In this document: positions 11,118 through 49,160 of the stretch, one piece after another
Layout: every line of letters begins with the position of its first letter
Position numbering within the stretch: position 1 is the first letter of the stretch
Assembly (NCBI GenBank): GCA_028719205.1
Contig: JAQUKH010000006.1
Location: forward strand, 1 to 64,000
Length of the DNA: 64,000 bases
From: a bacterium
Lineage (GTDB): Bacteria > JACRDZ01 > JAQUKH01
Reading direction: 5' to 3'
The notes under the pieces: generated by a model
The model's input: the letters and a program-made list of their open reading frames with translations, nothing else
What the model was told of the DNA's origin: nothing
Database searches by the model: none
Translations under genes and position numbers: made by a program

Positions 11118-11180
11118 TTGTAGGGGCGAACCCGTGTGTTCGCCCAAAAAGAGGGCAGACACATAGGTCTGCTCCTACAA
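11118..11180. repeat. MITE/REP-like palindromic repeat, family TTGTAGGGGCGAACC...
   Basis: TTGTAGGGGC...GCTCCTACAA terminal inverted repeats enclosing two hairpins; second copy at 15868. Confidence 0.75.
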
Positions 11181-15034: not shown

Positions 15035-15873
15035 GAACAATAAATACAGAACAGATCACAAACGAAGTATCCCGCCTCTGGCAGGACGCGAATTTTTACC
15101 TTGACAAAGATATTATTAATGTAATAAAAAAGAAATTACAGAAAGAAAAAGATCCCAGGGTAAAGGACGCTTTAAGTATAATATTAAATAATGCTGAATT
15201 GGCCCGGAAAGAAAGACGCCCGATATGCCAGGATACAGGGATACCGATAGTTTTTTTAGAGATCGGGCAGGATGTCATGATAAAGGGAGGGGATCTGACA
15301 GACGCTGTTAACCGGGGAATACGTCAGGGTACGGGAAAAGGATCATTGCGGCCATCGGTGGTTAATTGTCCGTTTGACAGGAAAAATACAAATGACAATA
15401 CGCCGGCAGTTATTCATACTGAAATAGTTAAAGGAGATAAATTAAAAATAAGCGTTATGGCAAAAGGGGCAGGGAGCGAAAATTGTTCCCAGACAAAGAT
15501 GCTGCTGCCTACTGACGGTGAAAGAGAGATCGAAAAATTTGTTCTAGAATCAATAAAGTTGGCAAGTTCTAATCCCTGTCCGCCGATAATCGTCGGGTTG
15601 GGTATTGGCGGGACGCTGGAAAAAGCGGTGTATCTTTCAAAAAAAGCACTGCTCGCTCCTTTAAATAAAATAAACCCCGATAAAAAGATCAGGGCGTTGG
15701 AAGAAAATATTATTAAAAAAATAAATAAGCTTAAAATCGGGCCGAACGGGTTTGGCGGCGGAACAACAGTATTAGCTTTGAGGATCGAAAAATTTCCCTG
15801 CCATATCGCAAGCCTGCCCGTGGCGATAAATATCAGCTGCCATGTTCACAGGCACAAAGAAGTTATTTTGTAG
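15031..15873 (+). CDS. Class I fumarate hydratase alpha subunit (no beta subunit adjacent)
   Basis: RKERRPICQDTGIPIVFLEIGQDV, KGAGSENCSQTKML, GPNGFGGGTTVLALRIE; stop codon lies within a dispersed repeat. Confidence 0.9.
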   Translation: MRTINTEQITNEVSRLWQDANFYLDKDIINVIKKKLQKEKDPRVKDALSIILNNAELARKERRPICQDTGIPIVFLEIGQDVMIKGGDLTDAVNRGIRQGTGKGSLRPSVVNCPFDRKNTNDNTPAVIHTEIVKGDKLKISVMAKGAGSENCSQTKMLLPTDGEREIEKFVLESIKLASSNPCPPIIVGLGIGGTLEKAVYLSKKALLAPLNKINPDKKIRALEENIIKKINKLKIGPNGFGGGTTVLALRIEKFPCHIASLPVAINISCHVHRHKEVIL

Positions 15874-15895
15874 GGGCGAACCCATGTGTTCGCCC
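15868..15895. repeat. Second copy of TTGTAGGGGCGAACCC[A/G]TGTGTTCGCCC repeat
   Basis: 27 of 28 nt identical to 11118-11145. Confidence 0.8.
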
Positions 15896-18594: not shown

Positions 18595-20136
18595 ATGTTA
18601 TCAATTATTAATAGCTGTGCTGTTTTTGGAATAGAAAGTTATCTGGTCCGGGTTGAGGTGGATATTGCCGGAGGCCTGCCGAGCTATTCTACGGTTGGGT
18701 TGCCGGACGCGGCGGTCAAGGAAAGCAAGGACCGGGTAAAGGCGGCGATAAAGAACTCGGATTTTGAATTCCCGAGCAAAAGGATCACGGTCAACCTCTC
18801 GCCGGCGGATGTGAAAAAAGAGGGGCCTGATTTTGACCTGCCGATTGCTATCGGGATCCTTGTGGCCACGGGCCAGCTAAAATCAGAAAAAATAAAAGAA
18901 TACGCGATCCTCGGAGAACTTTCACTAGACGGCACGGTGCAAAAAATTAACGGTGCTCTGCCTGTCGCTTTGGGAATAAAAAGAGAAGGTTTAAAAGGAA
19001 TAATTTTACCTCATGCCAATTCTGATGAGGCCGGCGTAGTTGAGGGTATTGAAGTTATTCCCGTAAAAGACCTTTTTGAAACTGTTAAATTTCTTGAAGG
19101 CGAAAAAAATATTTCGCCTCACAAGGTTGATCTGAATGAGATATTTGATAACAGCAGAAATTATGAACTGGATTTTTCCGATGTTAAGGGCCAGGAGCAG
19201 GCAAAGAGGGCTTTAGAGGTAGCGGCGGCCGGCGGGCATAATGTTATTATGGTTGGCCCCCCGGGTTCAGGAAAGACCATGCTGGCCCAGCGTTTCCCGA
19301 CGATCCTGCCGGATTTTAGTTTAGATGAGGCTTTGGAAACGACCAAGATTCACAGTGTGGCGGGAATACTGGCCTCCGAAAAAGGGCTGATAGCGGTACG
19401 GCCTTTCCGGTCGCCGCATCATACCATATCAAGTATAGCGCTGACAGGCGGCGGACAGTATCCGAGGCCTGGCGAGGTAAGCCTCGCGCATCACGGGGTG
19501 TTATTTTTGGATGAACTTCCTGAATTTCACCGGAGCGTATTAGAAGTTTTGCGCCAGCCATTAGAGGATGGCGTTGTTACAATTTCCCGCGCGGCGGCTT
19601 CATTGACATATCCCGCGAGGTTTATGCTGACCGCGGCGATGAATCCCTGCCCCTGCGGATATTATGGTGACTCATTCCATGAATGCAGGTGCACGCCAAA
19701 CCAGATCCACAGGTACCGCTCAAAAGTTTCAGGCCCTTTATTGGATAGAATTGATATTCATCTGGATGTTCCCGCGGTGAAATTTAAAGATATATCAAGC
19801 AAAGCTCCTGCTGAGAGTTCAGCGGATATAAAGCTAAGGATAAATAAAGCAAGGAATATCCAGAAAGACCGTTTCAAAAACCACAAGAAAAAGGTTTTCT
19901 GCAACTCCCATATGGGCCATAAAGATATTAAAAAATATTGTGAAATAGATGAGACCTCACTAAACCTTCTCAAAGAAGCCATCCAGAAAATGGGTTTCTC
20001 CGCCCGCGCCTACGACCGCATCCTGAAAGTCTCCCGCACGATCGCGGATCTGGATGGAATAGAGAACATTCGGCAGGATCATATCTTAGAGGCTATTCAA
20101 TATAGGAGTTTGGATAGGGGGGAGAATAAATTTTAG
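18595..20136 (+). CDS. comM: ComM/YifB-family Mg-chelatase-like AAA ATPase
   Basis: [78 protein letters not shown]. Confidence 0.96.
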
Positions 20137-22102: not shown

Positions 22103-22287
22103 GATAGAATTGACATTCATTTAGATGTTCCCGCGGTAAAATTTAAGGACATATCAAGTAAAATCCCGGCCGAAAGTTCCGCGGATATAAAGTTAAGGAT
22201 AAATAAAGCAAGGAACGTATTCAGCAGAATCATATTTTAGAAGCTATCCAATATCGGAGTTTAGATAGGGGTGAGAATAAATTTTAA
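22103..22287 (+). pseudogene. Decayed second copy of the comM 3' end
   Basis: 37 codons (95/111 nt identical to 19747-19857) joined by GT to 23 terminal codons homologous to 20068-20136; the 210-nt middle is missing and the frame is broken. Confidence 0.93.
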
Positions 22288-26797: not shown

Positions 26798-27571
26798 ATG
26801 ATATTAGGTTTTTTTGAATCTATAGGTAAAAATCTTAGTATTTTCGTTAAAGAAATCGGGCGTTTTACAATTTTTTATTTTAAATCCTTATTTCTTGTAG
26901 TAAGCGGGCCTGTTAATTTTAAGCAGACATTTATTCATATGGAACGGATAGGTGTCAGCAGCCTTCCTGTGGTTTTGATCACCGCGGGTTTTAGCGGCAT
27001 GGTTTTGGCTGTACAGACTTTTTACGGTATGAGTTTCATGAATATCTCGCGGTATGTCGGCCCGATTGTCGGTTTGAGTATGACCCGTGAGTTAGGGCCG
27101 GTGCTTACAGGGCTTATTGTTGCCGGGCGTATAAGTTCATCAATGGCCGCTGAACTGGGAACAATGCAGGTTACGGAACAAATTGACGCGTTTTGGACCT
27201 TAGCGGTTAATCCTTACAGATATCTGGTTGTTCCAAGGTTGATCGCATCAATTATTATGCTTCCTTTATTGACAGCTATTGCCGCTGTTACAGGAATTAT
27301 GGGGGGATTAGTTGTTTCAGCCAGTAAATTTAATGTTAATCCCATTCTTTATTATGAAACAACGCGGAATATTCTGGTGCTCAGGGATATTTATAACGGA
27401 TTGATAAAGGCTTTTTTCTTTGGAATGATCATAGCGATCGTTGGATGTTATAAAGGTTTTTCTACGCGGGGCGGCGCGGAAGGTGTTGGTTTATCGACCA
27501 CGGGCGCGGTAGTTTTAGCCTCTATACTTATTTTGGTTTCTGATTACTATTTGACGATTATATTTTTTTAA
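26798..27571 (+). CDS. mlaE: MlaE-family ABC transporter permease
   Basis: MERIGVSSLPVVLITAGFSGMVLAVQTF, LTRELGPVLTGLIVAGRISSSMAAELGTMQVTEQIDA. Confidence 0.94.
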   Translation: MILGFFESIGKNLSIFVKEIGRFTIFYFKSLFLVVSGPVNFKQTFIHMERIGVSSLPVVLITAGFSGMVLAVQTFYGMSFMNISRYVGPIVGLSMTRELGPVLTGLIVAGRISSSMAAELGTMQVTEQIDAFWTLAVNPYRYLVVPRLIASIIMLPLLTAIAAVTGIMGGLVVSASKFNVNPILYYETTRNILVLRDIYNGLIKAFFFGMIIAIVGCYKGFSTRGGAEGVGLSTTGAVVLASILILVSDYYLTIIFF

Positions 27572-27574
27572 TGA

Positions 27575-27594
27575 ATCCCGATTTTAATCGGGAT
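27575..27594 (+). repeat. Hairpin ATCCCGAT-TTTA-ATCGGGAT after mlaE
   Basis: Perfect 8-bp inverted repeat starting 3 nt after the stop codon. Confidence 0.85.
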
Positions 27595-27601
27595 GAATTT
27601 A

Positions 27602-27686
27602 CCCCGATGTAACATCGGGGGTTCAATTCGCACTATCATTTCTGTGCGCACTTCGTGCTTCATAAACGATGTGCTCATTGAAGGAG
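27602..27686 (+). promoter_or_regulatory. Structured leader copy A upstream of mlaD
   Basis: CCCCGATGTAACATCGGGG + TTCAATTCGCACTATCAT ... GATGTGCTCATTGAAGGAG; shared with tatA leader. Confidence 0.75.
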
Positions 27687-27692
27687 AATTTT

Positions 27693-29243
27693 ATGTCTGT
27701 TTCAGCTGAGGCAAAAGTTGGTATTATGATTTTTGTTTCTTTAATTATCCTTGCCAGCATGACTTTTACTGTAAGTAAAATATCTTTGTTTAAAAAGCCG
27801 GGGGATAAAATAAAGATACAATTTGAAGATACTGGCGGGCTTCGTCTTTATGATGATGTCAGGATAGCGGGTGTTATTGTCGGGAAAGTAGTTGATATTT
27901 ATCTGGAAGGGGCAAACGCGATAGTTGTTATCCAGCTAAAACCGGAATTTCATATTCGGAAAGGCGCGAAGGTAATTATTAATTCGGCAGGCCTTCTGGG
28001 AGAGGCGTATATCGGTGTTACGCAGGGGCCCGAGAAAGAACCTTTTCTTACTGAATCAAGCCCGCCGATACTCTCAGAGCCGACTGTACGTGTGGACCAG
28101 GTAATGGCAAGTATGAACCGTTTTATGGACAGGGCGGAAAACGCGATGAATTTTGATGTTCGCCAGGTAATCAAAAATACTGAAGACCTTATCGCAACCA
28201 TGAATCTGCTTGTTAATGAAAATCGCGCGAATATAAAGGAAATTTCCGGTAATATGGGCGCTATTTCTAAAGGGCTTACTGAGACCCAAAAGGAATTTCA
28301 GACAAAATTAGTCTCGATTTTAAGTAATGTCGACCAGTATTCCCAGACACTTTTTCAGAGAACCATCGCGATTTCCGATGAAATGCTTAATATTACAAAA
28401 GATCTGGATAGGGGAGTTAACAAGACCAGCAATGATGTTTCCGCTCTTATCAATAATTTTAACGAAACAAGCACGGAATTTAATAAGATCGTCAAAACAT
28501 TAGCTGAGACTATGAAGAAGATCGATAATATTGCCGCACGAGTGGAAAAGGGAGAAGGTGTTATTGGTAAATTAACTACAAGTAATGAATTGTATGATAA
28601 TTTAAATGGCGTGCTTATTGAGATCAAAGGGATAAGTACCTCGTTGAATCAGGTAGCAGGCCGTATAGAAAGAGGCGAGGGGACAATAGGCAAGCTGACA
28701 AAAGAAGATACGCTTTACAAAAATCTGGACGAAACTATCGCGAGCGTGAGAGACTTGACCGGCAGGGTTAATGAATATAGAACTTATTGGGGTTACAGGA
28801 TGGATTATCGTTTTATAAAACAGGAGGATCAGAAAGACTTCAGCAATACTTTTTCTTTCAGGTTTGATCCGAGACCCGGGAAATATTATTTGCTGGAGTT
28901 AACGGATATCGGCGGCAAAGAAAAGGTTTCCCTTTTGATCGGAGCCGCGGTTAAAGATTGGCTTACTTTGAAAGCCGGAGTGATCCAATCGACCGGCGGT
29001 GTAGGTTTAAATTACTATCCATTTGGCAAAGATTTCAATCTAGGGGTTTCCGCGTTTGATTTTGGAAGGTTGTCTAAACCTCAGGTTAAAGTGGAAGGTT
29101 CTTATCAGTTAACTAAAAATGTCTATTTTAATGTAGGCGCGGAAGACCTTTTATTAGACAAGTCATATTACGCGGGATTAAATGTTTTTATAGAGGATAG
29201 AGATATTAAATATCTTTTAGGGCTTGTGCCGTATGTGAAATAA
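27693..29243 (+). CDS. mlaD: MlaD/MCE-domain protein
   Basis: SAEAKVGIMIFVSLIILASM, FEDTGGLRLYDDVRIAGVIVGKVVDIYLEG, LLGEAYIGVTQG. Confidence 0.92.
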   Translation: MSVSAEAKVGIMIFVSLIILASMTFTVSKISLFKKPGDKIKIQFEDTGGLRLYDDVRIAGVIVGKVVDIYLEGANAIVVIQLKPEFHIRKGAKVIINSAGLLGEAYIGVTQGPEKEPFLTESSPPILSEPTVRVDQVMASMNRFMDRAENAMNFDVRQVIKNTEDLIATMNLLVNENRANIKEISGNMGAISKGLTETQKEFQTKLVSILSNVDQYSQTLFQRTIAISDEMLNITKDLDRGVNKTSNDVSALINNFNETSTEFNKIVKTLAETMKKIDNIAARVEKGEGVIGKLTTSNELYDNLNGVLIEIKGISTSLNQVAGRIERGEGTIGKLTKEDTLYKNLDETIASVRDLTGRVNEYRTYWGYRMDYRFIKQEDQKDFSNTFSFRFDPRPGKYYLLELTDIGGKEKVSLLIGAAVKDWLTLKAGVIQSTGGVGLNYYPFGKDFNLGVSAFDFGRLSKPQVKVEGSYQLTKNVYFNVGAEDLLLDKSYYAGLNVFIEDRDIKYLLGLVPYVK

Positions 29244-49079: not shown

Positions 49080-49085
49080 GTTTAC

Positions 49086-49160
49086 CTCCTTCAATGAACA
49101 CATCATCCCGGCTTATTTTCGGGATGATAGTGTGAATTGAACCCCGATGTAACATCGGGG
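49086..49160 (-). promoter_or_regulatory. Structured leader copy B upstream of tatA
   Basis: Minus strand: CCCCGATGTTACATCGGGG TTCAATTCACACTATCATCCCG...CGGGATGATGTGTTCATTGAAGGAG; homologous to 27602-27686. Confidence 0.75.

Follow-up and report, generated by a model that had tools for sequence, protein, structure and literature searches.

The hairpin that precedes mlaD and tatA in the DNA analysed here, a stretch of 64,000 nucleotides from a bacterial contig (the window), is probably one member of a family of small, mobile DNA palindromes that spans the phylum, and no dedicated switch for these two genes. We consider it very likely that the family represents a non-autonomous, dispersed palindromic mobile element (REPIN/BOX/MITE-like) that is maintained as a DNA palindrome. 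The element is dispersed, its arms covary, it occurs in both orientations, it is present or absent at orthologous sites, the SD beside it is native, and repeats flank it at tRNA sites. It provides a clean case of a DNA-level palindrome mimicking a regulatory RNA; in an analysis that took no account of antisense copies, of wobble counts and of empty sites, strong covariation combined with SD adjacency would pass for a new riboregulator.

In the initial annotation, the mlaD and tatA leaders were described as two copies of one structured sequence with a compensatory base change. Reading of both leaders confirmed the copies and the change, a G-C pair of the mlaD copy (G27630-C27674) being exchanged for A-T in the tatA copy (Table 1). 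Each shared motif was found twice in the window against 0.01–0.16 expected, both times at these copies only. The hairpins are strong and real, but the extent first assigned to the element was too small, as the full form consists of three hairpins in a row. In the mlaD copy, flanked by mlaE (PF02405) and mlaD (PF02470), the left hairpin is an inverted relative of the right one and extends across the TAA stop codon of mlaE (27569-27571). The tatA copy, flanked by the PRA-CH gene hisI and tatA (PF02416), is devoid of the left hairpin, and the hisI stop codon lies about 17 nt upstream. The stem is interrupted by a 2x2 TC/TC and a bulged T, the proposed long stem is absent from the minimum-energy RNA fold predicted for the mlaD leader, and no U-tract follows the central hairpin in either copy.

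Table 1. Features of the mlaD and tatA copies (window positions; CM, covariance model)
Feature	Position	Strand	Sequence or remark
mlaD copy, segments	27602-27620; 27621; 27622-27639; 27668-27686; 27693	+	CCCCGATGTAACATCGGGG; extra G; TTCAATTCGCACTATCAT; GATGTGCTCATTGAAGGAG; ATG
Left hairpin, mlaD copy	27567-27602	+	TTTAAT-GA-ATCCCGATTTTAATCGGGAT-GA-ATTTAC; opposite-strand R1 match 27567-27621, E 0.005
Central hairpin, mlaD copy	27602-27620	+	CCCCGATGTAACATCGGGG
Right hairpin, mlaD copy	27622-27682	+	TTCAAT-TC-GCAC.TATCAT...GATGTGC-TC-ATTGAA; CM R2, E 2.8e-15
SD of mlaD (GGAG)	27683-27686	+	host sequence, outside stem; ATG at 27693
tatA copy	49160-49085	-	ATG 49079
Central hairpin, tatA copy	49142-49160	-	
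Right hairpin, tatA copy	49090-49141	-	A49133-T49098 replaces G-C; CM R2, E 2.7e-11
SD of tatA (GGAGG)	49085-49089	-	GGAGG also in element-free G001 orthologue

The element is roughly 55–350 bp long and, in its complete form, is composed of a left hairpin (nnnAAT-GA-top-GA-ATTnnn), a central hairpin and a right hairpin (nnnAAT-TC-top-TC-ATTnnn). The outer hairpins are one motif on opposite strands, and minus and plus model matches are paired 100–170 nt apart. The central part is either a short CCCCGAT..ATCGGGG or a domain of ~100 nt; at mlaD, the congener of the window genome (G001, same genus) carries such a domain, CCCCGCAC...GTGCGGGG, where the window genome (G000, 2.59 Mb) has the central hairpin. 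Shortened copies without the left hairpin precede tatA and glnB. Hairpin tops are interchanged between copies, and at infC and tsf the two congeners have stem bases in common while tops and central parts are wholly different. A four-way cloverleaf pairing of both ends was considered and rejected, as the right arm prefers its own partner (5.23 of 6 pairs, compared to 3.85 and 3.73 with the other end); this comparison rests on the right arm, the left-arm figure having been selected for and hence left unused.

Two structural variants were observed besides. In the ~100-nt central domain of G001 (L056, L058, L060, L061 and L064, about 1390-1530), the partner of a 5' arm such as CACCAAA could be either a nearby or a distant TTTGGTG, and domains resembling this one are also present in G064. 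A second class of hairpin top (L039, L065, L276, L278, L238 and L254) is branched: GnAGAC is followed by a small hairpin and by another one that CTnC closes. This class takes the place of the usual top, orthologous sites included.

The covariance-model search of the genome and its relatives that had been suggested as a check revealed many more copies. Pattern search and a first covariance model (R1) located about 12 elements in the window genome, upstream of tsf, mlaD, glnB, a porB-like gene, infC, a gene for a 148-aa membrane protein, an amino-acid permease gene, tatA, gvpA, lpxI, amt and gyrB (here and below, gene names other than those checked with Pfam were assigned by reading translations). 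The congener has about 10–15 copies, including those before rplT, frr, rpsD, mlaD and lpxI; some are not at gene starts and lie near nif-like genes. A pattern scan of GTDB genome contigs yielded 21 loci in six MAGs, five of them titled Candidatus Omnitrophota, and one isolated, chance-like match. A second model (R2), built from 35 copies of the right hairpin, found 55, 50, 16, 14, 8 and 7 copies in these six MAGs. At E<=1e-6, R2 gave one or more matches in 99 of the 285 genomes from the phylum to which G063 belongs, where counts are lower bounds because the search scores few candidates per genome. Two of the four sampled genomes of the window's own GTDB phylum were positive, and matches in G041 comprised the short central palindrome only. 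The strict pattern gave no match indicating phage or plasmid carriage. Gene targets common to different MAGs were near chance, as estimated by hand, with the exception of mlaD.

These additional copies showed that the stem covariation noticed between the first two is genuine. In the 35 copies of the R2 model, 92.8% of stem cells pair, and 72 two-sided changes were counted compared to 21.5 +/- 4.6 in shuffles. A further 40 genomes supplied 42 distinct copies that took no part in building the model but were found with it and aligned to it, a procedure that favours pairing. Among these copies, 98.0% of stem cells pair; two-sided changes number 107, compared to only 4 one-sided (G-U type) changes. 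Watson-Crick pairing was found in 833 of 893 cells (93%) of copies in sense orientation relative to the neighbouring gene and in 483 of 511 cells (95%) of antisense copies. The near-absence of wobble intermediates and the equal pairing of sense and antisense copies thus point to a constraint that acts on DNA complementarity and not on one RNA strand.

Strong covariation is also what a dedicated cis-regulatory RNA (a thermometer, riboswitch or attenuator) would exhibit, with a regulon including mlaD, tatA, tsf, infC, glnB and gyrB. Such a regulon would agree with the finding that mlaD, lpxI, tsf and infC carry the element in both congeners and mlaD also in three other MAGs, and with the location of 12 of 12 copies in the window genome before genes. 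However, gene sets differ among related genomes, tops are wholly different at orthologous sites, and wobble pairs are nearly absent. The thermometer or attenuator first envisaged is unsupported because the SD lies outside the stem, beginning at or beyond its last 1–3 nt, a search of Rfam matched no family (none above the gathering cut-off), and antisense and stop-codon copies are equally paired. We regard a dedicated regulatory RNA as highly improbable.

The placement of the copies was scored by a strict rule (right end beside an SD that has a start codon, or on a stop codon) with a random-position control. Of 115 copies, 44 have their right end next to an SD with start codon (random 1.1%) and 23 have it on an antisense gene's stop codon (random 1.0%); 48 fit neither rule. 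Placement is precise: in 36 of the 44 SD-adjoining copies, the first base of the SD lies within the final 3 nt of the modelled stem. Left ends repeat both situations, 13 of 48 coinciding with a stop codon upstream and another 13 being placed at an antisense SD. A simple cause of this placement is that tight operons tolerate insertions only between stop codon and SD; it may also come from target choice. The suggestion that the element donates an SD did not hold, because the empty orthologous sites (tatA, porB, nusA, eno and others) still have an SD of their own. All 12 copies identified in the window genome aim the right hairpin at a gene start, a uniform orientation that counts against a mobile element because plain mobility predicts no such bias.

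Dispersion and presence/absence, on the other hand, bore out the proposal of a mobile, MITE-like element common to unrelated genes. The element is non-coding, and occupancy differs at orthologous sites: tatA, porB and amt carry it in the window genome and are free of it in the congener, and G060 and G063 differ in the same way at nusA, adk, rplF, eno, ahcY, recA, argG and others, where just one of the two has the element. A repeated tRNA end is interrupted by five copies, whose direct repeats of 12–26 bp start at the right end of the element; four such repeats of at least 16 bp were seen compared to 0 expected. Several points count against mobility. No linked transposase was found, and a non-exhaustive search showed no autonomous copy or IS with the same ends. 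The central parts of 48 full elements are <300 nt. At non-tRNA sites, the signal of target duplications was weak, with no clear example. A further such point is that five genomes from two lineages have kept the element upstream of mlaD.

The tRNA loci presented some details of their own. At L331, L351 and L352 (about 1400-1600), a partial second tRNA 5' end is split at one D-loop point (TCTATCC^A[A/G]TTGAGC) with an intact tRNA alongside, and at L341 the element splits a tRNA copy at the T-loop.

A mobile palindrome of this kind would insert into intergenic DNA, chiefly into the gap, only a few bases long, from a stop codon to the SD that follows, where it would be harmless, and would be spread by a putative trans-acting enzyme. 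Both arms of each hairpin would stay strictly complementary, even where the stem base enters host stop codons or codons. Tops may be swapped between copies by recombination, template switching or nested insertion, and effects on mRNA would be incidental or recruited later.

The sites upstream of mlaD are equivalent, between mlaE and mlaD in the two congeners and between mlaF and mlaD in G060, G061 and G063. For the latter three, covariation was seen between the left stem base and the last codon and stop of mlaF (TATAAT/ATTATA, TATAGT/ACTA and TGTAAT/ATTACA; L238, L198 and L254). These equivalent sites, the stem base that follows the host, and the common bases with different tops at infC and tsf indicate long retention at some sites together with ongoing correction or exchange within the palindrome. 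It is possible, if clearly the lesser chance, that the element is of mobile origin and that intercistronic copies were recruited as mRNA elements (a stabiliser, processing site or translational insulator). Recruitment would explain the long retention at mlaD, and both the covariation with mlaF and the single orientation in the window genome are consistent with it. However, most sites turn over among related genomes, and template-directed palindrome correction can also yield stem-base covariation. Either a recruited mRNA role or correction at the DNA level would explain the retention and the exchange. A rather unlikely variant is a new type of mobile DNA in which inner arms serve as guides, the stem base being formed with the host site (stop codon, SD or tRNA loop) and the inner arm matching each new site. 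Guiding of this kind would account for a covariation with host codons that is specific to each copy, and for the exact placement. Because stem bases covary with host codons and tops are swapped at conserved sites, the maintenance of such palindromes is directly testable.

Compared to known repeats, the family shares features with several systems. First, BOX elements of Streptococcus pneumoniae are modular small repeats with conserved outer and exchangeable inner parts. The family has a similar modular build with exchangeable inner parts; the host is unrelated, and the sequence is not known to be related. Second, ERIC/NEMIS-type MITEs are, like the family, imperfect palindromes of ~100–200 bp in transcribed gaps. 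No ends are known to be common to the two, and no parent IS was found for the family in a non-exhaustive search. Third, integron attC sites are structure-conserved palindromes with variable tops located in the gap that separates a stop codon from the following gene, as are the elements described here. However, the aligned termini of the family (YNAATTC...TCATTNR) do not contain the attC core GTTRRRY/RYYYAAC, and the neighbours are ordinary operon genes instead of cassettes.

REPINs, which are inverted REP doublets, have been proposed to move by RAYTs (PMC3116915); REPs bear GTAG or CGTC tags, and CGTC REPs are without a dedicated transposase (PMC3733652). Like REPINs and BIMEs, the family consists of short palindromes in inverted pairs, seen here as paired minus/plus matches, that are intergenic, present in many copies and non-autonomous (PMC3116915, PMC3733652). 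Unlike them, it has no linked Y1 transposase, possesses a third (central) hairpin and variable tops, and ends on stop codons and SDs. We find it unlikely that these are REPINs in the strict sense, moved by a RAYT (IS200/IS605-like Y1 transposase). The inverted hairpin doublet with spacer is as in REPINs (PMC3116915), and Y1 transposases are present in G000, G001, G061, G063 and G065. However, none of 18 Y1_Tnp loci had an R2 hairpin nearby, no Y1_Tnp was found in G060 with its 55 copies (MAGs may be incomplete), and the foot carries neither a GTAG nor a CGTC tag.

Judged by title and abstract, the papers returned by a literature search on Omnitrophota and palindromic repeats did not deal with such elements. 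The repeat family, found in a third of the genomes sampled from a large, uncultivated phylum, appears to be undescribed. Its unusual features are the near-exact fit from stop codon to SD, the stem bases covarying with host codons, the swapped tops, and the retention at mlaD in five genomes.

Other repeats were noted along the way. Upstream of tyrS in G060 (L316), another inverted repeat, CCACGTTAGACC...GGTCTAACGTGG, stands directly before the gene, where G063 has an element of the mlaD/tatA type. The window contains a second palindromic repeat, TTGTAGGGGCGAACCC[G/A]TGTGTTCGCCC, at 11118-11145 and 15868-15895 (96% identity between the two). Finally, 113- and 68-nt stretches of a 513-aa ORF (18595-20136) recur ~2.2 kb downstream with 87–88% identity (window 19744-20135 and 22103-22286), representing a partial gene duplication or a remnant.
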